Part shown: positions 14,962 to 26,217 of the stretch, one piece after another
How the letters are laid out: each line of letters starts with the position of its first letter
Position numbering within the stretch: position 1 is the stretch's first letter
Assembly (NCBI RefSeq): GCF_000427465.1
Contig: NZ_ATYB01000014.1
Span: forward strand, 3,289,058-3,353,057
Length of the DNA stretch: 64,000 nucleotides
Reading direction: 5' to 3'
From: Sinorhizobium arboris LMG 14919
GTDB lineage: Bacteria > Pseudomonadota > Alphaproteobacteria > Rhizobiales > Rhizobiaceae
Position numbers and translations under genes: made by a program
Notes under the pieces: model-generated
What the model was told of the DNA's origin: nothing
Seen by the model: only the letters and a program-made list of their open reading frames with translations
Database searches by the model: none

Positions 14962-16416
14962 ATGAATCTGAAAGACCCGTCGCTGTTTCGCCAGGCCGCT
15001 CTCGTGGGAGATACCTGGATCGAAGCCGATCCCAAGAATGCGATCGAGGTGAACAATCCGGCCACCGGCGAAATCATCGGCCGTGTCCCGAAGCTCGGCG
15101 CCGCCGAGACCAGCACCGCCATCGAGACTGCGGCGCGGGTGCAGAAGGACTGGGCCGCAAGAACGGCGAAGGAGCGCTCGGCTGTACTGCGCCGCTGGTT
15201 CGAGCTGATGATCGAAAACAAGGACGATCTCGGCCGAATCCTGACGATGGAGCAGGGCAAACCGCTTGCGGAAGCGACAGGCGAGATCGTCTACGGAGCG
15301 AGCTTCATCGAATGGTTCGCGGAAGAGGCGCGCCGCGTCTATGGCGATCTCGTCCCCGGCCATCAGAAGGACAAGCGCATTCTGGTAATGAAGCAGCCGA
15401 TCGGCGTCGTCGCGGCGATCACTCCCTGGAACTTCCCGAATGCGATGATCACCCGAAAGGCCGGGCCGGCCTTTGCCGCGGGTTGTGCCATGATCCTCAA
15501 GCCGGCCGCGCAGACGCCGTTTTCGGCAATCGCCATCGCCGTCCTCGCAGAGCGCGCAGGCATCCCGAAGGGTCTCTTCAGCGTCGTCACAGGCTCCGCG
15601 CGCGAGATCGGCGCCGAGATGACCTCCAATCCGACCGTACGAAAGCTGACCTTTACCGGCTCCACCGAGGTCGGTGCCGAGCTCTATCGCCAGAGCGCGG
15701 CCACGATCAAGAAGCTCGGTCTGGAGCTTGGCGGCAACGCTCCATTCATCGTTTTCGACGACGCCGATCTCGATGCGGCGGTCGAAGGGGCGCTGATCGC
15801 CAAGTTCCGCAACAATGGCCAGACCTGCGTCTGCGCCAATCGCATCTATGTGCAGGACGGCGTTTACGAGGCCTTCTCCGAGAAGCTTGCCCAGGCCGTC
15901 GGCAAGCTCAAGACCGGTAACGGCCTGGAGGAAGGTGTCATTCTCGGGCCGCTGATCGACCAGCCGGCGCTGAAGAAGGTCGAGGAGCACGTGGCCGATG
16001 CGCTCTCGAAGGGCGCGCGCGTGGTGCAGGGCGGTCGTCGCCATACGCTCGGCGGCACCTTTTATGAGGCGACGGTGCTGGCCGACGTGACCCAGGCGAT
16101 GGCGGTCGCACGGGAAGAGACGTTTGGCCCGGTGGCGCCGCTCTTCCGCTTCAAGGACGAAGCGGACGTGATCGCGCAGGCGAACGACACCGAGTTCGGT
16201 CTTGCCTCCTATTTCTACGCGACGGATCTCGCCCGCGTCTTCCGCGTGGCCGAGGCCCTGGAATACGGCATGGTCGGCGTCAATACCGGGCTGATCTCCA
16301 CGGCCGAGGCGCCCTTCGGCGGTGTCAAGCTTTCGGGCCTCGGACGCGAAGGCTCGAAATACGGGATCGAGGAATTCATGGAGATCAAATATGTCTGCCT
16401 CGGCGGTATTGCCTGA
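14962..16416 (+). CDS. gabD: NAD(P)-dependent succinate-semialdehyde dehydrogenase (GabD type)
   Basis: Aldehyde dehydrogenase of the GabD group, oxidising succinate semialdehyde to succinate. It has 484 residues from ATG 14962, behind GAGGAAGGGA. The cofactor motif TPWNFPNAMITRKAGPAFAA, the GSTEVG loop, the Glu of LELGGNAPFIVFDDADLD and the nucleophile Cys289 in GQTCVCANR are all present. It ends with an intrinsic terminator. It could instead serve another semialdehyde or lactaldehyde, which matters because a sugar-catabolic island begins 200 bases downstream. Confidence 0.88.
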   Translation: MNLKDPSLFRQAALVGDTWIEADPKNAIEVNNPATGEIIGRVPKLGAAETSTAIETAARVQKDWAARTAKERSAVLRRWFELMIENKDDLGRILTMEQGKPLAEATGEIVYGASFIEWFAEEARRVYGDLVPGHQKDKRILVMKQPIGVVAAITPWNFPNAMITRKAGPAFAAGCAMILKPAAQTPFSAIAIAVLAERAGIPKGLFSVVTGSAREIGAEMTSNPTVRKLTFTGSTEVGAELYRQSAATIKKLGLELGGNAPFIVFDDADLDAAVEGALIAKFRNNGQTCVCANRIYVQDGVYEAFSEKLAQAVGKLKTGNGLEEGVILGPLIDQPALKKVEEHVADALSKGARVVQGGRRHTLGGTFYEATVLADVTQAMAVAREETFGPVAPLFRFKDEADVIAQANDTEFGLASYFYATDLARVFRVAEALEYGMVGVNTGLISTAEAPFGGVKLSGLGREGSKYGIEEFMEIKYVCLGGIA

Positions 16417-16436
16417 GCAGGAGCCCCATCAAACAG

Positions 16437-16466
16437 ACCGCTCGGCAGCGCTGGGCGGTTTTCTTT
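16437..16466 (+). terminator. Intrinsic terminator of gabD
   Basis: Stem ACCGC/GCGGT (16437-16441 and 16455-16459) with partly paired inner bases, followed by TTTTCTTTT. It lies 20 bases after the gabD stop and separates gabD from the aldolase gene. Confidence 0.75.
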
Positions 16467-16526
16467 TGTTGCGAAGACATTAGTCTTCGTCATCGATTCT
16501 TGTTGCAGGATGAGGATCGCCGTCAC

Positions 16527-16556
16527 CCTCCCTCTCCCGCTTGCGGGGAGAGGGGA
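16527..16556. repeat. RIME-like palindrome (copy 2)
   Basis: CCCTCTCCCGC and GCGGGGAGAGGG around TT, with one bulged G. Same family of wording as the elements at 6361, 28958 and 56185. It lies about 60 bases upstream of the aldolase start and would form a strong hairpin in its leader. Confidence 0.6.
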
Positions 16557-16612
16557 CTTGGGCGGCCGCCGTCTATTCCGCGTAAAGCAGCCCACTCCAA
16601 AGGAGACCGACG

Positions 16613-17413
16613 ATGCCCGCCCCGAAAAACACCTTCAAAGCGGCGATCCGCGAAAACCGGTTCCAGCTTGGGCTCTGGGTGGCGCTCGCCAGTCCCTATG
16701 CGGCCGAAGTGGTGGCCGGCAGCGGTTACGACTGGCTGCTGATCGATGGCGAGCACGCTCCGAACGATCTTCCCATGCTGGCGGCACAGTATCGCGCGGT
16801 CGCTGGCGGAGGCAGCCATCCGATCGTCCGCCTGCCGGTCGGCGACACGGTCATGATCAAGCAGATTCTCGACGCCGGCGTCCAGACGCTTCTGATCCCG
16901 ATGGTCGACAATGTCGAGCAGGCGCGGCAGCTCGTGCGCGCCGTGCGTTACCCGCCGCATGGTATTCGCGGCGTCGGTGCCGCTCTGGGCCGGGCCACGA
17001 ATTTCAGCCGCATCGGCGACTATCTCGAAAACGCCAATGACGAAATCTGTCTGCTTTTGCAGATCGAGAGCCGGGCAGGGCTGGAGGCGATCGACGCCAT
17101 CGCTTCGCTGGACGGCGTCGACGGACTGTTCATCGGTCCGGCGGATCTTGCCGCGGACATGGGCCATCTCGGCAATCCCGGCCATCCGGAGGTGCGGGCA
17201 GTCATCATCGAGGCCTTCGCGCGAATCCATCGCGCCGGCAAGGCGCGCGGCATCATGACCCTCGATCCCGCCCAGGCGCGGGACTATCGTGACCTTGGGG
17301 CCGACTTCCTGGCGATCGGCACCGATGTGACGCTTCTCGTCAGCGCAACGGAACGGTTGCGCCGGGAGTTTCTTGGAGAAGCCGGACCGATAAGACGTGA
17401 ATCCGGCTACTGA
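16613..17413 (+). CDS. HpcH/HpaI family 2-keto-3-deoxy acid aldolase
   Basis: Class II pyruvate aldolase that splits 2-keto-3-deoxy sugar acids or 4-hydroxy-2-oxo acids into pyruvate and an aldehyde. It has 266 residues. Diagnostic motifs are LGLWVALASPYAAEVVAGSG, DWLLIDGEHAPND (catalytic His), TLLIPMVDNVEQA, YPPHGIRGVG, LLLQIESRAGLEAID (metal-binding Glu) and GLFIGPADLAADMG (metal-binding Asp). It shares the fold of GarL and HpcH. Next to a UxaA-type dehydratase, it probably cleaves the dehydrated sugar acid, but the exact substrate is unknown. Confidence 0.9.
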   Translation: MPAPKNTFKAAIRENRFQLGLWVALASPYAAEVVAGSGYDWLLIDGEHAPNDLPMLAAQYRAVAGGGSHPIVRLPVGDTVMIKQILDAGVQTLLIPMVDNVEQARQLVRAVRYPPHGIRGVGAALGRATNFSRIGDYLENANDEICLLLQIESRAGLEAIDAIASLDGVDGLFIGPADLAADMGHLGNPGHPEVRAVIIEAFARIHRAGKARGIMTLDPAQARDYRDLGADFLAIGTDVTLLVSATERLRREFLGEAGPIRRESGY

Positions 17414-17428
17414 TCGGTTTTTCCGGCT

Positions 17429-17456
17429 GGAGCGTTTCAGAAAGCTGACGCGCTCC
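17429..17456. repeat. Short inverted repeat between convergent genes
   Basis: Arms GGAGCG (17429-17434) and CGCTCC (17451-17456). Between the aldolase gene and the minus-strand GntR gene. Could be a weak terminator or a dispersed palindrome. Confidence 0.35.
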
Positions 17457-17510
17457 ATTGGACCCGATCATGTTCATGGTCCTGGGTCGTCCGACTGAAT
17501 CATCGTGACC

Positions 17511-18389
17511 CTAGGGGATCGATTGCAGCAGAGTCTCGCGCGCCGATTTCAGGTGTCGCCGGCAGGCCTGTTCGGCGAGCGTCGGATCGCGCGATTGCAG
17601 CGCGGCGATATAGTCGAGATGCTCTTCCAGTGCCCGGGCGTTGCGCTCCCGTGCATTCGCCTTGTTCCACTGGTAGTGATAGTGGAAGACGATGGCGATG
17701 ACATCGTAGAAGTCGATGATGAAGCGGTTGCTCGACGATTTGTGCACCAGGAGGTGGAAGCGTTCGTCGAGCTCTGAAAACTCGCCGTAGCGCTTGTCGA
17801 TGTCGGCGAGGATTTCCCGATGCTCCGCCTCGATCGTCTTCAGTTCCTCCCAGGCCGGGTCCTGTTCGGGAAGAGAAACGAAGCGGGCGGCCGATCGCAG
17901 CTCGAACATCTCCCTCACTTCGGTCAGTTCGAGTGCGAAATCGCGCGTGAACCCCTTGAGAACCCAATGGCTGTTCGGCCGTTTCTCGATCAGCCCGAAG
18001 CGGCTGAAGCGGATCAGGAATTCGCGAACGCTCGTCGTGCCGGCGCCGATCTCGCGGGCAAGTTCGAGCTCGTTGATCTGCATGCCGGGCTCGGCGCCGC
18101 CCGCGAGAATCCGGCGCATGAAGCTCCGCTCGATTCGCTCGGCGAGCGAATCGGTCTCCTCGGTCGGGAAATAATCCGAGGGCTCGGGTCTTCTCAGCAC
18201 GGTCTTCAGACGCTTGTCCCAAGCGATGAGGCTCAGTTCCTCGCAGCGAGTGAGAATGGCGCGCACGGTTGTGCGGCTGACGCCGAGCGCTTGGCCGAGC
18301 TCCGGTTCCGAGGGCAGCGTGGCGGTCTCGGCGAAGAGGTCGAGGCAGCGGTTGAAGGCATCCTTGAAGACGGTGTTCTGCTTCGCCAT
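17511..18389 (-). CDS. GntR/FadR-type regulator with two tandem winged-helix domains and an FCD domain
   Basis: Probable local repressor of the sugar island. It has 292 residues from ATG 18389; an in-frame ATG at 18485 would add 32 residues. Residues about 5-65 form one winged helix (LPSEPELGQALGVSRTTVRA). Residues about 78-140 form a second (RIERSFMRRILAGG..., INELELAREIGAGTTSVREF, LIEKRPNSHWVLKG). An FCD-like ligand domain follows to the end (LTEVREMFELRSAARF, ELDERFHLLVHKSSSN). Usual FCD regulators have one HTH and about 230 residues, so the duplication is real, not a start error. Divergent from the dehydratase gene. Confidence 0.85.
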   Translation of the reverse strand: MAKQNTVFKDAFNRCLDLFAETATLPSEPELGQALGVSRTTVRAILTRCEELSLIAWDKRLKTVLRRPEPSDYFPTEETDSLAERIERSFMRRILAGGAEPGMQINELELAREIGAGTTSVREFLIRFSRFGLIEKRPNSHWVLKGFTRDFALELTEVREMFELRSAARFVSLPEQDPAWEELKTIEAEHREILADIDKRYGEFSELDERFHLLVHKSSSNRFIIDFYDVIAIVFHYHYQWNKANARERNARALEEHLDYIAALQSRDPTLAEQACRRHLKSARETLLQSIP

Positions 18390-18474
18390 GACGAGATCCG
18401 GCCCGGCTCGGGTTGGTCGTGACGGCGCGCCGGGCTCCCAATCCGCGACGGCCGCAATAGCCACATAATAGTCA

Positions 18475-18510
18475 TTGACGAACATCTGTCTATTGTAGAT
18501 AAAAGACAGA
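18475..18510. promoter_or_regulatory. Divergent promoter/operator between GntR gene and dehydratase operon
   Basis: Inverted arms CTGTCT (18486-18491) and AGACAG (18504-18509) flank an AT-rich 12-base centre. TTGACG (18475-18480) and TAGATA/GATAAA (about 18496-18503) could be the -35 and -10 elements for the rightward operon. It lies 30 bases before the dehydratase start, in the only promoter-sized gap. Binding by the neighbouring GntR protein is inferred. Confidence 0.5.
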
Positions 18511-18539
18511 AGGGTGCTTTTACATGCGAGGAGCTTGAA

Positions 18540-20045
18540 TTGCCCGCACCGTCTTCGATCCTTCTTTCGCCGGAAGACAACGTCGTCGTCGCCACCGCCG
18601 CGATTGCGCCGGGCGAACGGCTGGCTGGCGGCGTGCCGGCGGTTGCTCGGATCGAGGCAGGCCACAAGGCCGCGATCCGTAAGATCGATGCGGGTGAGCC
18701 GGTGGTCAAATACGGCCAGGCGATCGGTCGGGCCACATCGACCATCGCCCCCGGCGAGCACGTTCATTCGCATAACCTCGCCTTCGACCAGGGCCGGCTC
18801 GCCATCGGCGCTCCCGTGCCGCCGGAGGCCGCGAGCGCAACGGACAAGGCGCGCACATTCCTCGGCTATCGCCGGGCGGACGGCCGTGCCGCAACGCGCA
18901 ACTACATCGGCATCGTCGCCAGCGTGAACTGTTCCACCACGGTCTGTCGCGCGATCGCCGACGAGGCCAACCGGCGTGTTCTGCCGAAATATGAAGGCAT
19001 CGACGGCTTCGTGCCGATCGTGCACGACCAGGGATGCGGCATGTCGTCCACGGGCGACGGAATGAAGAACCTGCACCGGACGCTCGCCGGCTATGCGCGC
19101 CACGCGAATTTCGGCGGCGTGCTGATGGTCGGCCTCGGCTGCGAGGTCAATCAGCTGACGCTCTACGGCCAGAGTGGGGCCGGAGCCGAGAAGCGGCATT
19201 TCAACATCCAGGAGGCCGGCGGTTCGCGCCGCTCGGTCGAGCGTGCACTCGGCATTCTCGACGAGATCGCGAAAGAGGTGGCAACCGCCCGGCGCGTGCC
19301 GATCCCGGTCAGCGAGATCATCGTCGGCCTGCAATGCGGCGGCTCGGATGGGCTTTCCGGCATCACCGCCAATCCGGCACTCGGCGCGGCGGTCGATATC
19401 CTCGCAGGCGCCGGCGGCACGGCCATCCTATCCGAAACCTCCGAGATCTACGGCGCCGAGCATCTGCTGCGCAGCCGCGCGATCAATGAGACAGTCGCGG
19501 TGAAGCTCGACGGACTTATCGCCTGGTGGGAGGACTATGTGGCGATGCATGGCGCTTCGCTGGACAATAATCCTTCGCCGGGTAATAAGCGCGGCGGCCT
19601 GACGACGATCCTCGAAAAATCGCTCGGGGCGGTCGCCAAAGGCGGCCGCTCGCCATTGACCGCCGTCTACAGTTATGCGGAACGCGTGACGGAGCCGGGC
19701 CTCGTCTTCATGGATACGCCGGGTTACGATCCGGTATCGGCAACCGGCCAGGTCGCCGGCGGCGCCAATGTCATAGCCTTCACGACCGGGCGCGGCAGCT
19801 GCTTCGGCTGTCGGCCGGCGCCATCGATCAAGCTCACCAGCAACACGGCGCTCTATCGGGCCATGGAAGAGGACATGGATATCGACTGCGGCGTCATCGC
19901 CTCGGGTGAGGCGACGATCGCCGGCCTCGGCCGGGAGATTTTCGAGTTCATCATAGAGACGGCCTCGGGCCGAAAGACAAAGAGCGAGCTTTTCGGCTAC
20001 GGTGACAACGAATTCGTGCCATGGCATCTGGGGGCGACGCTTTAG
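18540..20045 (+). CDS. UxaA/GarD-family sugar-acid dehydratase (altronate dehydratase-like)
   Basis: Fe-dependent dehydratase family that turns aldonic or aldaric acids into 2-keto-3-deoxy acids. It has 501 residues, like E. coli UxaA. An N-terminal SAF domain (about 13-90) is followed by the GD_AH domain. Cysteines expected to hold the metal are in VNCSTTVCRA, DQGCGMS, GLGCEVNQ, GLQCGGSDG and GRGSCFGCRPAPSIK. It starts at TTG 18540 behind GAGGAG, the best start available. First gene of the operon with the reductase, ABC transporter and zinc dehydrogenase. Altronate itself is only one possible substrate, since no uronate isomerase or UxaB is nearby. Confidence 0.87.
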   Translation: MPAPSSILLSPEDNVVVATAAIAPGERLAGGVPAVARIEAGHKAAIRKIDAGEPVVKYGQAIGRATSTIAPGEHVHSHNLAFDQGRLAIGAPVPPEAASATDKARTFLGYRRADGRAATRNYIGIVASVNCSTTVCRAIADEANRRVLPKYEGIDGFVPIVHDQGCGMSSTGDGMKNLHRTLAGYARHANFGGVLMVGLGCEVNQLTLYGQSGAGAEKRHFNIQEAGGSRRSVERALGILDEIAKEVATARRVPIPVSEIIVGLQCGGSDGLSGITANPALGAAVDILAGAGGTAILSETSEIYGAEHLLRSRAINETVAVKLDGLIAWWEDYVAMHGASLDNNPSPGNKRGGLTTILEKSLGAVAKGGRSPLTAVYSYAERVTEPGLVFMDTPGYDPVSATGQVAGGANVIAFTTGRGSCFGCRPAPSIKLTSNTALYRAMEEDMDIDCGVIASGEATIAGLGREIFEFIIETASGRKTKSELFGYGDNEFVPWHLGATL

Positions 20046-20082
20046 GGTGAGGGGCAGATTTTCCTTGGGGAGGAGACAAGGA

Positions 20083-21102
20083 ATGCAGACGAGAAGGATC
20101 GGACGGACCGAACTTGCGGTGACCGAACTCAGCTTCGGCACGGCCGGACTGGGCGGTCTCTATCGCGAATGTACCCGTGATGCGGCGATGGCAACGCTCG
20201 ACGCCGCCTGGGAAGCAGGTATCCGTTATTTCGACACGGCGCCCTTCTACGGGCTCGGTCTTGCCGAGCGGCGTGTGGGCGATTTCCTGCGCGACAAGCC
20301 GCGCGACGGTTTCGTGCTGTCGACGAAGGTAGGCCGCCTGCTTCATCCGGTGCCGGAGGACAAGGTTCCGGACTATTCCTACGTCAAGCCTCTGAACTTC
20401 GACGTCACCTATGACTACGGCTACGACGCGATCATGCGTTCGGTCGAGATGAGCTACGCCCGCCTTGGTCTCAACCGGATAGACATCCTCTATGTCCACG
20501 ACATCGGCGGCTATACGCACGGCGCGGCGAAAAATGCCGTCTACCTGCGGCAGCTCCTGGACTCCGGCCTGAAAGCGCTGGAAGAGCTGAAGTCGAGCGG
20601 CGTCATTTCGGCCTATGGCCTCGGCGTCAACGAGGTGCCGGTCTGCCTCGACGTCATGCGCCGGGCCGAAATCGACTGCATCCTGCTTGCCGGGCGCTAC
20701 ACGCTTCTCGACCGCTCCGCGGTTGCCGAGCTCCTGCCGCTCTGCGCGGATAAGCGCACGTCGCTGATCGTCGGCGGCGTGTTCAATTCCGGCATTCTCG
20801 CGACCGGTCCCGTCGAGGGAGCGCATTTCGATTACATGCCCGCAACCGAGGAGGTGCGCGCCAAGGTCGCAGCGATGGAACGCATCGCTGCGGCAAAGGA
20901 CATGCCGCTCGCTGCCCCGGCCCTGCAGTTTCCGCTGGCCAATCCTCAGGTCGCCTCCGTCCTGCTCGGAACCGCCAAACCGCAGAGCCTCAAGCGGAAT
21001 ATGGAGCTGACGCGCTTTGAAATCGCGCCGGAGGATTACGCGGGCTTCGATCCCCACACACTTGTCGCGCCCGAGCTGGGACCGGAGGCGGTAAGGGCCT
21101 GA
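20083..21102 (+). CDS. Aldo/keto reductase, D-threo-aldose/L-fucose dehydrogenase type
   Basis: NAD(P)-linked oxidoreductase with the aldo-keto reductase barrel. It has 339 residues from ATG 20083, behind GAGGAGACAAGGA. The catalytic tetrad appears as Asp and Tyr in RYFDTAPFYGLGLAE, Lys in LSTKVGR and His in ILYVHDIGG. The insert LLHPVPEDKVPDYSYVKP and NFDVTYDYGYDAIMRS are typical of the group that includes L-fucose (D-threo-aldose) 1-dehydrogenase. That reaction makes an aldonolactone, which after opening would feed the adjacent dehydratase. No lactonase gene is seen in the island. Confidence 0.82.
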   Translation: MQTRRIGRTELAVTELSFGTAGLGGLYRECTRDAAMATLDAAWEAGIRYFDTAPFYGLGLAERRVGDFLRDKPRDGFVLSTKVGRLLHPVPEDKVPDYSYVKPLNFDVTYDYGYDAIMRSVEMSYARLGLNRIDILYVHDIGGYTHGAAKNAVYLRQLLDSGLKALEELKSSGVISAYGLGVNEVPVCLDVMRRAEIDCILLAGRYTLLDRSAVAELLPLCADKRTSLIVGGVFNSGILATGPVEGAHFDYMPATEEVRAKVAAMERIAAAKDMPLAAPALQFPLANPQVASVLLGTAKPQSLKRNMELTRFEIAPEDYAGFDPHTLVAPELGPEAVRA

Positions 21103-21215
21103 TGCCCCGCCGCCGGCCATGGCGGCCCGTCACCTTTCATAAGCAACCGGACCCGCATGCACCTGGCGGCCCGGTGCCGATAACGGAACAAGGTGTTACT
21201 GAGAGGAGAACCCCG

Positions 21216-22205
21216 ATGAGCATAGCCAAGCGCATTCTTTCCCGCCGCGCCTTCAATGCCCTGGCCGGCGCCGCTTTCGTTGCCGCAATGATACCTGCGA
21301 ACTCTTTCGCGCAGGACGTCACCATTCCCATCATCGTCAAGGACACCACGTCCTTCTACTGGCAGATCGTGCTCGCGGGCGCGCGCGCCGCCGGCAAGGA
21401 CCTCGGCGTCAACGTGCCGGAGCTCGGTGCCCAGTCGGAATCCGACATCAACGGCCAGATCACGATCCTTGAAAATGCAGTCGCGGGCGCGCCGGCAGCG
21501 GTGGTCATTGCCCCGACGGAGTTCAAGGCGCTCGGCAAACCTGTCGACGAGGCCGCCAAGTCGGTTCCGGTCATCGGCATTGATTCCGGCGCGGATTCGA
21601 AGGCCTTCACGTCGTTCCTGACCACGGACAACGTTCAAGGCGGACGCATCGCCGCCGACGGTCTTGCTGCTGCCATCAAGGAGGCAACCGGCAAGGAAGA
21701 GGGCGACATCGCGATCATCACCAGCCTTCCGGGCGTCGGCTCTCTGGACCAGCGCCGCGAAGGCTTTCTCGATCAGGTCAAGACGAAATATCCCGGGCTT
21801 AAAGTGGTCGCCGACAAATATGCCGACGGCCAGGCGACGACCGGTCTCAACATCATGACCGATCTGATCACCGCCAACCCCAACCTCGTCGGCGTTTTTG
21901 CCTCGAACCTGATCATGGCGCAGGGCGTCGGCCAGGCGATCGCCGAGAACAAGCTCGGCGACAAGATCAAGGTGATCGGCTTCGACAGCGACGACAAGAC
22001 CGTCGGCTTCCTCAAGGAAGGTGTGCTGGCCGGCCTCGTCGTGCAGGACCCCTATCGCATGGGCTATGATGGCGTGAAGACGGCTCTGGCGGTTTCCAAG
22101 GGCGAGAAGGTCGAAGCCAATGTCGACACCGGTGCGAACCTGGTCACCAAGGCTAATATGAGCGAGCCGAAGATCGACGCGCTTCTGAACCCGAAGGTCA
22201 ACTGA
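21216..22205 (+). CDS. Sugar ABC transporter, periplasmic binding protein (ribose/RbsB type)
   Basis: Type 1 periplasmic binding protein of the CUT2 class. It has 329 residues from ATG 21216, which follows GAGAGGAGA. The first 32 or so residues form a Sec signal (ILSRRAFNALAGAAFVAAM... cut near NSFAQ). The mature part has LPGVGSLDQRREGFLDQV and GLNIMTDLITANPNL, then VIGFDSDDKT and GLVVQDPYRMGYDGV, as in RbsB/XylF relatives. With the two following genes it forms a complete importer. The ligand should match the sugar degraded by the island. Confidence 0.92.
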   Translation: MSIAKRILSRRAFNALAGAAFVAAMIPANSFAQDVTIPIIVKDTTSFYWQIVLAGARAAGKDLGVNVPELGAQSESDINGQITILENAVAGAPAAVVIAPTEFKALGKPVDEAAKSVPVIGIDSGADSKAFTSFLTTDNVQGGRIAADGLAAAIKEATGKEEGDIAIITSLPGVGSLDQRREGFLDQVKTKYPGLKVVADKYADGQATTGLNIMTDLITANPNLVGVFASNLIMAQGVGQAIAENKLGDKIKVIGFDSDDKTVGFLKEGVLAGLVVQDPYRMGYDGVKTALAVSKGEKVEANVDTGANLVTKANMSEPKIDALLNPKVN

Positions 22206-22329
22206 CGAACCGGTGCGCGCGGTGCCGTAAGGCAGGCACCGCGCGCCGTTTCGCGGGAGCGAGGCGGCAAGCCTTTGCAGCGGTCGAGGGGGAGCGGCCG
22301 CTGCGATCAAGAAAGTGGAGGAGAACGCG

Positions 22330-23883
22330 ATGATAGGGCTTCAAGAGGTCAGCCATCGCCATGACGAACAGGTGAGGGCAGCGGGCAGCCATCCGGTTCC
22401 GAAGGGCGAGCCCATTCTCGAGCTCCGCGGCCTGCAGAAAAACTACGGCGCGGTGGAGGCGCTGAAGCCCGCGACCATGACCTTCCTCTCCGGCGAAGTC
22501 CATGCGATCGTCGGCGAGAACGGTGCCGGCAAGTCGACGCTGATCAAGCTCCTGACCGGGGTCATCCGGCGCAGCGCCGGCGAGATCCGCTGGTGCGGCG
22601 AACCCGTCGATCTCGCCACGCCCAACGAAGCGATCGCCCGCGGCATCAACGCGGTTCACCAGGAGGTGGTGCTTTGCCCGCATTTGAGCGTCGCGGCCAA
22701 CATGTTCCTCGGCGACGAGATGAACCGGCGCGGGCTGATGCGCAAGCGCGCAATGACTGCCGCGGCCCAGGGTGTGCTCGACGACCTCGGCTTCAATCTG
22801 CCGGCAAATGCCGAGCTCGGCAGCCTGACGATCGGACAGCAGCAGCTGGTCGCTACCGCGCGGGCGGCTATGCGCGGCACGCAGTTTCTTATCTTCGACG
22901 AGCCTACGGCCTATCTCACGCGACAGGAATCGGCACAGCTTTTCCGCCTTATCCGACGGCTCCAGGGCGAGGGCGTGACGATCGTCTATATCAGCCACAG
23001 GCTGGAAGAGGTCTTCGAACTCGCAGACCGCGTTTCGGTGCTGCGCGACGGCACGCATGTCGGCACGCGCGCCATCACCGAGACCAATGAGGCCGAACTG
23101 ATTGCTCTGATGATCAACCGCACGATCGAGCAGATCTATCACAAGGAACATTTTGAGCCGGGCGAAACGATCGTCGAGACGCGCGGCCTTTCCGGGCCTG
23201 GTTTCCGCGACATATCGCTCTCGGTCAGGGCAGGCGAGATCGTCGGGCTTTACGGTCTGATCGGCGCCGGACGCAGCGAGTTCGCGCTCGGCCTCTATGG
23301 GCGCAATCCGCTGACCGCGGGAGAGATCTTCTGGCAGGGCCGCAAGGTCGCGATAGGCAACGAACGGGATGCCATGGACCTCGGGATCGCGCTTGCGCCG
23401 GAGAGCCGCCGCGATCAGGGCCTGTGCCTCAATCTGCCGATCGGCCTCAACATCAATCTGCCTGTGTTCAAGAGGCTGACACGCGGTTTGACGATCAACC
23501 GTGCCGAGGAGGCCTCCAACGCCGAACGTCAGATCAGGGACCTGAAGATCAAGACGCCGTCGCGTCGGGTGCTCGCCTCCGCCATGTCGGGCGGCAACCA
23601 GCAGAAGATCGTGATCGGCAGGTGGCTGAGCCACGGCGCAAAGCTCTTCATCTTCGACGAGCCGACCGTGGGCGTCGATGTCGGTACCAAGGCGGAAATC
23701 TACCGGCTGTTCGCGCGCCTTCTGGAGAAGGGAGCTGGGATCATCCTGATCTCCTCCTACCTCCCGGAGGTCTACGAACTCGCCGATCGCCTGCATGTGT
23801 TCAGACAGGGAAGGCTGGTGGCAAGCCACGATTTTCGCGCCGCGAGCCACGAGGAAGTGCTGGCGCAGGCGATCAATGCCTGA
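22330..23883 (+). CDS. Sugar ABC transporter, duplicated ATPase (RbsA/XylG type)
   Basis: Two fused ATP-binding domains energising the importer. It has 517 residues from ATG 22330, behind GGAGGAG. Domain 1 has Walker A GENGAGKST (62-70), a degenerate signature LTIGQQQLVA and Walker B FLIFDEPTAYL. Domain 2 has a degenerate Walker A (GLIGAGRSE), signature MSGGNQQK and Walker B LFIFDEPTVGVDVG. This one-active, one-degenerate arrangement is usual for the CUT2 family. The gene sits between the binding protein and the permease. Confidence 0.94.
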   Translation: MIGLQEVSHRHDEQVRAAGSHPVPKGEPILELRGLQKNYGAVEALKPATMTFLSGEVHAIVGENGAGKSTLIKLLTGVIRRSAGEIRWCGEPVDLATPNEAIARGINAVHQEVVLCPHLSVAANMFLGDEMNRRGLMRKRAMTAAAQGVLDDLGFNLPANAELGSLTIGQQQLVATARAAMRGTQFLIFDEPTAYLTRQESAQLFRLIRRLQGEGVTIVYISHRLEEVFELADRVSVLRDGTHVGTRAITETNEAELIALMINRTIEQIYHKEHFEPGETIVETRGLSGPGFRDISLSVRAGEIVGLYGLIGAGRSEFALGLYGRNPLTAGEIFWQGRKVAIGNERDAMDLGIALAPESRRDQGLCLNLPIGLNINLPVFKRLTRGLTINRAEEASNAERQIRDLKIKTPSRRVLASAMSGGNQQKIVIGRWLSHGAKLFIFDEPTVGVDVGTKAEIYRLFARLLEKGAGIILISSYLPEVYELADRLHVFRQGRLVASHDFRAASHEEVLAQAINA

Positions 23884-23920
23884 TGGAGCCGGTTGAGGAA
23901 AAGACGCAGGGGAGGAAACG

Positions 23921-24895
23921 ATGAGTGTGGAAACGGTTGAAGGCGCGGGACCGACGCCGAAGAAGGGCGTCAGCATTCTGTTCGGCCTGACGCTGCTTGG
24001 GCTGCTGGTCGTCCTCTGGCTGCTGCTGGGTCTCGCGACCAACGCCTTCTGGACGCCGAACAACATCAGCAACCTCCTGCGTCAGGGGGCGATGACCGCG
24101 ATTCTCGCCGTCGGCCAGACGTTCGTCATCATCACGGCCGGCATCGACCTGTCGGTCGGTGCCGTCGTCGGCTTCACCAGCGTCATCGTCGCCTGGCTGC
24201 TCGCGGCGGGCGTTCCGCTCTGGCTCGCGATCATCGCGACGCTCGCGATCGGGGTTCTGATCGGCGCCTTCCATGCCTTCGGCATCGTGCGAATGGGGCT
24301 GCCGCCCTTCATCATCACGCTTGCGACGCTGACTTCGCTTCGCGGCATCGGTCTCCTGATCACCAACGGCTCGACCATCTCCATAACGAACGAGCATTTC
24401 ACCGACTTTTCGCGCGCCGATTTCCTCGGCGTTCCCAGTCTCTTCTGGATGGTGATCGTCGTAGCCATTCCGGCTTACGTCTTCCTGCATCTGAGCCGCT
24501 TCGGGCGCTATCTCTTCGCGGTGGGCTCCAACCGTGAGGCGGCCCGCCTTTCCGGCGTAAACGTCAATCGCACTATCTATCTCGCCTACATACTGTCTTC
24601 CACCTGCGCCGCCTTCGTCGGGCTGCTGCTTGCGTCGCGCATCGGTATCGGCAACGCCACGCAAGCGGAAGGCTGGGAACTGCAGGCGATCGCCTCTTCG
24701 GTCATCGGCGGCACGAGCCTCTTCGGGGCCGTAGGCTCGGTACACGGGCCGCTGCTTGGCGCGTTCATCCTTGCGACGATCAACAACGGCGCCAACCTTC
24801 TGAACGTAAATTCCTTCTGGCAGCGCATCATCACCGGCCTGCTGATCATCGTCATCGTCTATTTTGACCAGTTGCGGCGGCGGGGCGCTCGGTAA
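23921..24895 (+). CDS. Sugar ABC transporter permease (RbsC type)
   Basis: Membrane channel of the CUT2 importer, 324 residues from ATG 23921 behind GGGGAGGAAACG. About nine or ten hydrophobic helices run from 25 to 315. Family motifs are ILAVGQTFVIITAGIDLSVG and GLPPFIITLATLTSLRGIG, with SVIGGTSLFGAVGSVHGPLL near the C-terminus. It ends in RRRGAR, 46 bases before the dehydrogenase gene, so uptake and catabolic genes share one transcript. Confidence 0.94.
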   Translation: MSVETVEGAGPTPKKGVSILFGLTLLGLLVVLWLLLGLATNAFWTPNNISNLLRQGAMTAILAVGQTFVIITAGIDLSVGAVVGFTSVIVAWLLAAGVPLWLAIIATLAIGVLIGAFHAFGIVRMGLPPFIITLATLTSLRGIGLLITNGSTISITNEHFTDFSRADFLGVPSLFWMVIVVAIPAYVFLHLSRFGRYLFAVGSNREAARLSGVNVNRTIYLAYILSSTCAAFVGLLLASRIGIGNATQAEGWELQAIASSVIGGTSLFGAVGSVHGPLLGAFILATINNGANLLNVNSFWQRIITGLLIIVIVYFDQLRRRGAR

Positions 24896-24941
24896 TGGCC
24901 GTCTTACCGCACCGGCCGCAAGCAAAGCTTGGGAGCGCCGC

Positions 24942-25958
24942 ATGAAAGCCGTCGTCTGTTCAGAGCCTGGCCGTCTCGCGCTCGTCGCCAGTCGCGGACC
25001 TGAAGCACCGCCGCCCGGCTCGGTGCGCCTTGCCGTCAGCCGCGTCGGCATCTGCGGCACCGATTACCATATCTTCGAAGGCAAGCACCCCTTTCTCGAA
25101 TATCCGCGCGTGATGGGTCACGAGATCTCGGCGAGGGTGGTCGAAGGCGGTCCGGGCACCCGGCTTGCGCCCGGAACGCTCGTGGTCGTCAATCCGTATC
25201 TCTCATGCGGGAACTGCATCGCCTGCCGCAAAGGCAAGGCGAACTGCTGCACGGATATCCGTGTCCTCGGCGTTCACACCGACGGCGCCTTCTGCGAGGA
25301 GATCGTCATGCCCGAGCAGAACCTTTATCCGGCTGAAGGTCTTTCGCCCGAAGCCGCCGCCGCGGTCGAGTTCCTGGCGATCGGCGCCCACGCGGTCCGG
25401 CGGTCGGCGGCAGGCCGCGGCGCCCGTTCGCTGGTGATAGGCGCGGGACCGATCGGTCTTGGGACGGCCATCTTCTCCCGTATCGCCGGCCACGACGTAA
25501 GGCTGCTCGACACGAGCGCGGAACGCCTGGCCTTCGCAACGGAAAGGCTCGGCTTTCCGCCTGGAATCCTGGCGGGTGACGATGAGGCGCTGGCGCAGGC
25601 AACGGGCGGAGATGGGTTCGACGTCGTCTTCGACGCTACCGGCAACGTCCGATCCATGGAGCACGCCTTCGCACACGTCGCCCATGGCGGCACGCTGGTC
25701 CTCGTCAGCGTGGTCAAGGAGGACATCCGCTTCTCCGATCCCGAATTTCACAAGCGGGAAATGACGCTCGTCGCGAGCCGCAACGCCACGCGCGAGGATT
25801 TCGATCACGTCATTCAGTCGCTTGCCGCGGGGCTCGTGCCGGTGGAGGCGCTCGTCACGCACCGCACGACGCTCGAAGACCTCGTCGACGATCTTCCCCG
25901 CTGGGCGCACGACAAGACAGGGCTGGTCAAAGCGGTTGTCGCGGTCGGCGGCGGGTGA
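24942..25958 (+). CDS. Zinc-dependent alcohol/polyol dehydrogenase (MDR family)
   Basis: Medium-chain dehydrogenase, 338 residues from ATG 24942. Catalytic zinc ligands are in GICGTDYH and MGHEISA. The structural zinc site is CGNCIACRKGKANCC. The NAD(P) fold has GAGPIGLGTA, and DVVFDATGN follows. It is closest in style to the sorbitol/threonine/L-idonate dehydrogenase group. As last gene of the island it could oxidise a 2-keto-3-deoxy acid or a polyol; the substrate is not readable from sequence. Confidence 0.87.
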   Translation: MKAVVCSEPGRLALVASRGPEAPPPGSVRLAVSRVGICGTDYHIFEGKHPFLEYPRVMGHEISARVVEGGPGTRLAPGTLVVVNPYLSCGNCIACRKGKANCCTDIRVLGVHTDGAFCEEIVMPEQNLYPAEGLSPEAAAAVEFLAIGAHAVRRSAAGRGARSLVIGAGPIGLGTAIFSRIAGHDVRLLDTSAERLAFATERLGFPPGILAGDDEALAQATGGDGFDVVFDATGNVRSMEHAFAHVAHGGTLVLVSVVKEDIRFSDPEFHKREMTLVASRNATREDFDHVIQSLAAGLVPVEALVTHRTTLEDLVDDLPRWAHDKTGLVKAVVAVGGG

Positions 25959-26217
25959 GAAGCTCACATGTTCTTTCCTAAAAAGTGAGGGGTGCATTTG
26001 TTGCGCTGCACAAGAAAAATGCTAGTGTAGCGGCGATTGCGGGCACCAGAAACGAACAACCGCAAGCCAGACCGTTCCACCGTCCCGGTGAGCGGTCCAA
26101 CTTTTGAAAACTACGCGCTTCCCGACGGGAACCGGCACAAAGGTTTTCCCGTGGAAGTGCTCCGGCGTCGAACTGGGAGCGGCGTTTTCGTTGATTTGAA
26201 ACAAGGGATACGCGCCC
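25959..26217 (+). promoter_or_regulatory. phaZ leader with possible PhaR-type operator
   Basis: A 259-base spacer. At 26001-26013 it holds TTGCGCTGCACAA, an imperfect dyad (outer TTG/CAA, inner GC/GC). TGC-rich dyads of this kind bind the polyhydroxyalkanoate regulator PhaR in other alphaproteobacteria, and the next gene is a PHB depolymerase. An A-rich stretch and GCTAGTGTAG follow and may be the promoter. The remaining 200 bases look like untranslated leader; no small gene was recognised. Confidence 0.4.

Follow-up and report, generated by a model that had tools for sequence, protein, structure and literature searches.

A candidate L-galactose operon with LgoD-, UxaB- and UxaA-type steps in Sinorhizobium arboris and related bacteria

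L-Galactose is a plant sugar that occurs in cell walls and in vitamin C synthesis. The L-galactonate route of E. coli consists of LgoD, UxaB, UxaA and a kinase. Pathways that start from the sugar itself are known in other bacteria: work with enzymes and mutants has shown that Luteolibacter LG18 degrades L-galactose by the set of reactions considered here, and Phocaeicola vulgatus also has an L-galactose pathway (PMC12632266 and work cited therein). In Sinorhizobium meliloti, the genes SMc02772-SMc02775 are ascribed to L-fucose because of binding and induction data, and the available part of the report assigns no downstream enzymes (PMC3454389). In this paper, we analyse an operon of the same kind at positions 18540-25958 of a 64,000-nt stretch of Sinorhizobium arboris LMG 14919 (the window, meaning the full stretch), in which a sugar-acid dehydratase, an aldo-keto reductase, a CUT2 importer and a zinc dehydrogenase are encoded on the plus strand beside a divergent GntR regulator gene. 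As the best single reading, and with somewhat better than even confidence, we suggest that this operon serves the degradation of L-galactose via LgoD-, UxaB- and UxaA-type steps, without the HpcH aldolase that is encoded nearby.

Two likenesses that an earlier note, made from the letters of this DNA, had overlooked point in this direction. The zinc alcohol dehydrogenase gene (adh, 24942-25958, plus strand; Pfam and NCBIfam models) encodes a protein whose identity in pairwise comparison is 41.6% with E. coli LgoD and 31.8% with RspB; a SDPEFHK...SRNAT stretch occurs in it and in LgoD but is absent from RspB. When LgoD was searched against the organism's own genome, this protein came first with 265 bits, the runner-up reaching 152; the reverse direction, from the window proteins to E. 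coli, was covered by pairwise comparison. The protein is therefore discussed below as a proposed L-galactonate 5-dehydrogenase. The divergent GntR/FCD regulator gene (gntR, 17511-18389, minus strand) encodes a protein that aligns with E. coli LgoR from end to end (33.0% identity over 297 aligned positions, E 1.4e-59) and has the same make-up of two GntR winged helices followed by an FCD domain, as seen with Pfam; the next-best GntR match in the own genome scored only 53.6 bits. Since the dehydrogenase resembles LgoD and the regulator LgoR, the course indicated would be from L-galactonate to D-tagaturonate, D-altronate and 2-keto-3-deoxygluconate (KDG).

The first gene of the operon (uxaA, 18540-20045, plus strand, TTG start) encodes a UxaA/GarD-family dehydratase with the Pfam domains GD_AH_C, GD_AH_second and SAF. 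The cysteines C131, C166, C201 and C266 are common to it and to E. coli UxaA and GarD, it is the sole member of this family found in its own genome, and its nearest relatives are Sinorhizobium and Ensifer by name. The domains and the four cysteines agree with the earlier description of the enzyme as UxaA-type, and we propose that it is a D-altronate dehydratase. The next gene (akr, 20083-21102, plus strand, best start ~20083; Pfam Aldo_ket_red) encodes an aldo-keto reductase whose top five solved relatives are L-galactose dehydrogenases (best 106 bits), and which is proposed to be an L-galactose (L-fucose) 1-dehydrogenase. Then follow the importer genes, all on the plus strand: that of the substrate-binding protein (sbp, 21216-22205, the start at 21216 being likelier than one at 21102), that of the ATPase (atp, 22330-23883, start ~22330, with two stretches of Pfam ABC_tran), whose top NCBIfam models are pentose importer ATPases scoring under their cut-off, and that of a single permease (23921-24895, Pfam BPD_transp_2). 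The gene calls in the interval 16613-25958 were checked with Pfam and NCBIfam models, and every gene listed in the earlier note, i.e. those of the HpcH aldolase, the UxaA-type dehydratase, the aldo-keto reductase, the CUT2 importer, the zinc dehydrogenase and the GntR protein, proved real.

In the proposed route, the CUT2 importer would take up L-galactose and perhaps L-fucose, and the aldo-keto reductase would convert L-galactose to a lactone, which could open spontaneously or through a lactonase that is encoded at this spot in same-genus relatives. The LgoD-type dehydrogenase would then form D-tagaturonate by oxidising C5 of L-galactonate, D-tagaturonate would be converted to D-altronate by a UxaB-like reductase, whose gene adjoins the operon in several related genera and was not found here, and the UxaA-type enzyme would dehydrate D-altronate to KDG. 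HpcH and gabD would be neighbours with no role in the pathway. The gene set would thus correspond to the L-galactonate route of E. coli with a sugar oxidation step and an ATP-binding cassette (ABC) importer placed in front of it, a route most likely put together from steps that other bacteria are known to use. The general scheme of the earlier note, in which the CUT2 system imports a sugar whose oxidation gives an aldonate, and a dehydration then leads to a 2-keto-3-deoxy acid, is probably right.

The extent of the operon was examined in two sets of loci, which share some genomes, in which some contigs end early, and in which genes were located by tblastn. Set A consists of the best 80 of at least 593 loci from a scan with the window dehydratase, 40 of which have a dehydratase at least 73% identical to it; set B consists of the DNA around dehydratase relatives, where 40 loci were examined and 20 reach the same identity. 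Among these 40 and 20 loci, respectively, gntR was found in 40 and 20, akr in 37 and 18, sbp in 38 and 19, atp in 37 and 17, the permease gene in 37 and 19, and adh in 33 and 19; gntR lies at most 1.3 kb from uxaA in all 60. The gene order of the operon core is conserved across the sampled loci. In one of the sister loci (L085, 7118-10319), ~3 kb holding one long open frame separate sbp and akr.

The sister loci also carry accessory genes, namely a FucU-type gene (22/40 in set A, 9/20 in set B), a UxaB-like gene of the mannitol-dehydrogenase family (7/40 and 7/20) and a lactonase gene (3/40 and 5/20). The top model of the relatives' UxaB-like gene is tagaturonate reductase (212.8 bits, cut-off 359). 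The genes for adh, the mannitol-dehydrogenase-family protein and uxaA stand side by side as a cassette in L090 and L196 (apparently one genome), in L232 and on a Thioclava plasmid (L102), where the cassette additionally holds a PfkB sugar kinase gene; such a kinase gene lies next to the dehydratase gene in L037 as well, and beyond gntR in L085. The FucU-type gene scores 124 bits against the L-fucose mutarotase model (cut-off 141), and the fuconolactonase-type lactonase of the relatives 203-230 bits (cut-off 400). In the same-genus loci L075 and L076, the lactonase gene (family match 203.5 bits, same cut-off) lies after adh, precisely where the window is short of ~0.9 kb; in a blastn comparison of this gap (deletion site, 25959-26217) with the relatives' stretch, significant matches were found at both ends only and none mid-stretch. 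The earlier statement that no lactonase is present is thus true of the window, but it leaves out that two genomes of the genus carry one exactly at this place. Two distant lactonase homologues (31% and 34% identity) are encoded elsewhere in the own genome. Because a lactone may also open spontaneously, the lactonase is not taken to be essential.

As to the sugar, we are confident that the substrate of the operon is an aldose with the L-galacto configuration, and the L-fucose-like configuration named in the earlier note fits. L-Fucose is 6-deoxy-L-galactose, and therefore a binding site of the SMc02774 type does not decide between the two sugars. The four ligand residues of the S. meliloti protein, Lys10, Arg148, Asn199 and Gln245, correspond to K42, R180, N231 and Q277 here (the core starts at Q33), a match that rests on the positions published for SMc02774 (PMC3454389), and these four residues are invariant among 24 aligned sequences. 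The pLDDT (predicted local distance difference test) of the binding protein was 72.5 when modelled from the 24-sequence alignment versus 39.6 from the single sequence. The protein is also very close to PDB 4rxt, which probably holds D-arabinose. The LgoD-type enzyme, the LgoR-type regulator and the UxaB-like neighbours favour L-galactose.

Several points weigh against the L-galactose reading. SMc02774 was reported in 2012 to bind L-fucose with a Kd of 3.6 nM, as determined by fluorescence resonance energy transfer (FRET), its gene is induced by D-fucose, pyruvate and L-fucose, and the available part of that report makes no mention of L-galactose as a ligand (PMC3454389). The dehydratase is equidistant from UxaA (35.7% identity) and GarD (36.2%), the UxaB-like genes of the relatives are only ~29% identical to E. 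coli UxaB (29.7% measured) and score under the family cut-off, and no clear tagaturonate reductase turned up when the own genome was searched with the UxaB-like L077 gene, which yielded two distant proteins that each best fit the fructuronate reductase model, under its cut-off. The lactonase gene is absent from the operon and from the window, and adh was not found by tblastn in 7 of the 40 set A loci. In three of six related loci that lack uxaA (L138, L140 and L141; see below), adh is followed by a short-chain dehydrogenase/reductase (SDR) gene like that of L-2-keto-3-deoxyfuconate (L-KDF) dehydrogenase, the best solved relatives of the L141 protein being structures of the Herbaspirillum huttiense L-2-keto-3-deoxyfuconate 4-dehydrogenase, which suits L-fucose as the substrate there. 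Finally, the Luteolibacter and Phocaeicola systems were likened to this operon by description and not by sequence.

The estimates we attach to the L-galactose reading and to its rivals do not sum to one, because a dual-substrate operon overlaps with it. In such an operon, which we regard as a possibility well short of even, the importer, the dehydrogenase and the lactonase would be common to L-galactose and L-fucose, and separate branches would follow, LgoD-UxaB-UxaA for L-galactonate, and an SDR plus a fumarylacetoacetate hydrolase (FAH) family hydrolase for L-fuconate. Both modules do occur together: in Methylibium (L226) and Ralstonia (L232), L-fucose-type genes (SDR, FAH) lie beside L-galactonate-type genes (adh, mannitol-dehydrogenase family, uxaA) and a CUT2 importer, and the SDR gene beside the operon in three of the six uxaA-less loci L138-L143 argues in the same sense. 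However, the window operon holds neither an SDR nor a FAH gene, and the LguA dehydrogenase of Luteolibacter shows no activity on L-fucose, nor on D-arabinose (PMC12632266). A broader form of the idea, to which we give a slightly better though still less than even chance, is that many rhizobia share a modular operon, tuned to plant L-galactose, that handles L-galactose and L-fucose via one importer and one dehydrogenase; its two interchangeable exits, LgoD-UxaB-UxaA leading to KDG or SDR plus hydrolase leading to pyruvate, are held at that same tentative level, as part of one joint proposal.

An operon for L-fucose alone is unlikely in our view, and L-fucose is better seen as the main rival sugar or as a second substrate. 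Here, import and oxidation to L-fuconate would be followed by a UxaA-type dehydration to L-KDF, and then by HpcH cleavage, or by oxidation and hydrolysis (route 3), to pyruvate and a three-carbon product. The FRET binding and the induction of SMc02774 speak for it, as do the FucU-type and fuconolactonase-type genes of the sister loci, both under their NCBIfam cut-offs, the SDR genes just described, and one UxaA-family dehydratase with a relative activity of 5.6% on L-fuconate (PMC6336799). Nevertheless, it leaves the LgoD-type dehydrogenase, the LgoR-type regulator and the UxaB-like gene unexplained, and HpcH does not travel with the operon. Furthermore, the same genome carries a separate cluster of L-fucose-type genes on another contig (C2, 290-301 kb; L073, L158), comprising an amidohydrolase lactonase, a CUT1-type importer, an enolase-family dehydratase, a rhaM mutarotase, a Gfo/Idh oxidoreductase, an SDR and a FAH hydrolase, with NCBIfam scores under cut-off. 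A D-arabinose operon, in which a D-arabinonate dehydratase as in H. huttiense would act before HpcH cleavage to pyruvate and glycolaldehyde, is very improbable: a D-arabinonate dehydratase (C785_RS13685, likened by description) does belong to the same superfamily and the C2-C4 configuration of D-arabinonate is that of L-galactonate, D-altronate and L-fuconate (PMC6336799), and the probable D-arabinose ligand of 4rxt would also speak for it, but D-arabinonate offers an LgoD-type enzyme no secondary C5 hydroxyl, and HpcH is unlinked to the operon.

The aldolase gene (hpcH, 16613-17413, plus strand; NCBIfam HpaI, 371.9 bits, cut-off 368.8) lies on the other side of gntR from the operon and converges with gntR, and is preceded by a succinate-semialdehyde dehydrogenase (SSADH) gene (gabD, 14962-16416, plus strand; NCBIfam NF008415, 848.6 bits, cut-off 828). 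The earlier note had placed hpcH and the operon genes in one island under the GntR gene, with HpcH cleaving the 2-keto-3-deoxy acid and the gabD-type enzyme next door perhaps finishing the product. We draw the unit differently, as the operon at 18540-25958 with its divergent gntR; hpcH and gabD do not belong to it in the same way. Each was found in 8/40 loci of set A and 6/20 of set B; hpcH stands beside 14 of the 60 operon copies, every one at a single chromosomal site between gyrB and phaZ, and both genes accompany the operon at that site only. In addition, hpcH occurs at the site without operon and gabD in L137, and likewise, within a shorter stretch, in L116 of the same genus. Since the two genes accompany the operon at this site only, and hpcH is found there without the operon, they go with the location rather more than with the operon, and are probably neighbours rather than operon members.

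Regulatory signals were also compared. A candidate operator, an inverted repeat CTGTC...GACA found by pattern search, lies in the gntR-uxaA gap (18486-18508), and we infer that the GntR regulator may bind it. The strict pattern is present in 16/61 gntR-uxaA gaps versus 0/20 gabD-hpcH gaps. It was not found in the other 45 of the 61, six of which were re-examined allowing mismatches. A mismatch-tolerant test of 11 gaps found the repeat with 0-2 mismatches before akr in 5/5 uxaA-less loci, and with 4-7 mismatches in five of six other loci, the sixth having none; the fewest mismatches in shuffled controls (30 per gap) were 8 to 10 across the 11 gaps. The uxaA-less loci, seven in number, were chosen from an hpcH search and are not a random draw; six of them (L138-L143), at the gyrB-phaZ site, keep gabD, hpcH, gntR, akr, sbp, atp, the permease gene and adh.

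HpcH and gabD as the final steps are thus rejected as the main reading, because the genes stay at their site instead of travelling with the operon, and because the strict operator is absent between gabD and hpcH. Two observations favour such steps: gabD and hpcH adjoin the operon in every copy examined at the gyrB-phaZ site, and a Variovorax boronicumulans plasmid (L107, 5977-9857) has consecutive genes for a dehydratase of the UxaA type, an SSADH and an HpaI aldolase, 51%, 51% and 56% identical to the window proteins. This trio comes after a gene for a tripartite tricarboxylate transporter binding protein, and is in itself a candidate sugar-acid pathway with the dehydratase-aldolase-dehydrogenase logic of the earlier note. 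HpaI yields succinate semialdehyde, which the gabD product oxidises, and gabD and hpcH (14962-17413) form a chemically coherent pair. Second HpaI-type copies in L144 and L145 (68% and 62% identical) lie, as judged by eye, within homoprotocatechuate-like clusters. A terminator-like hairpin (16435-16461) lies 3' of gabD, and a comparable one was seen by eye in 7/7 sequences compared, the window included; the whole stretch holds 9 hairpins of that kind versus a shuffle mean of 8.5, i.e. no excess.

These results suggest a specific function for an operon of many rhizobia that is now labelled 'altronate hydrolase', 'ribose transport' or L-fucose transport, and they correct the earlier reading based on the aldolase and gabD, two neighbours that are not found with the operon at other sites. 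Should the L-galactose reading be true, rhizobia would have a candidate pathway for L-galactose only, of a kind that the Luteolibacter authors did not find among holders of Lgu orthologs; in the available part of their text, no organism was found that has the other six orthologs but lacks the L-glucose-specific epimerase gene lguG (PMC12632266). If the modular operon is real, L-galactose would also be a substrate of the S. meliloti importer published for L-fucose. Our literature search found no paper joining L-galactose, L-galactonate and Sinorhizobium. To call the pathway unassigned, as the earlier note did, is nevertheless too strong, because SMc02774 was already reported in 2012 and bacterial L-galactose pathways with the same reactions have been published.

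Among the known systems, the L-galactose pathway of Phocaeicola (Bacteroides) vulgatus, with BVU_0219 and BVU_0222 and presumably BVU_0220 as its lactonase, belongs to a different phylum. The lguABCDEF cluster of Luteolibacter LG18 for L-glucose and L-galactose is alike in that L-galactose dehydrogenase, D-altronate dehydratase, tagaturonate reductase and L-galactonate dehydrogenase are encoded together and KDG is an intermediate; it differs in that a Btr-type activator is annotated, a 2-keto-3-deoxy-6-phosphogluconate (KDPG) aldolase is included, and no ABC importer is mentioned in the available text (PMC12632266). D-Arabinonate dehydratase is one member of the UxaA/GarD family, in which dehydratases of L-galactonate and L-fuconate have also been proposed from context (PMC6336799). 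A characterised relative from this superfamily has the four conserved cysteines in common with the window dehydratase, but its gene is accompanied by SDR and FAH genes, and it dehydrates its aldonate directly, with no prior C5 epimerisation. SMc02772-SMc02775 of S. meliloti, an L-fucose importer with a putative L-fucose dehydrogenase, agree in gene order and ligand residues (PMC3454389) and very likely represent the same operon as that of the window. In E. coli, lgoR likewise lies beside lgoD and the regulator and dehydrogenase are homologous to those of the window, but the LgoT symporter is encoded next to them and uxaA and uxaB elsewhere, whereas the window operon includes uxaA and has a sugar dehydrogenase and an ABC importer in addition. 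The window operon would thus represent an L-galactose route of known type that pairs a different regulator and importer, in a group of bacteria associated with plants.

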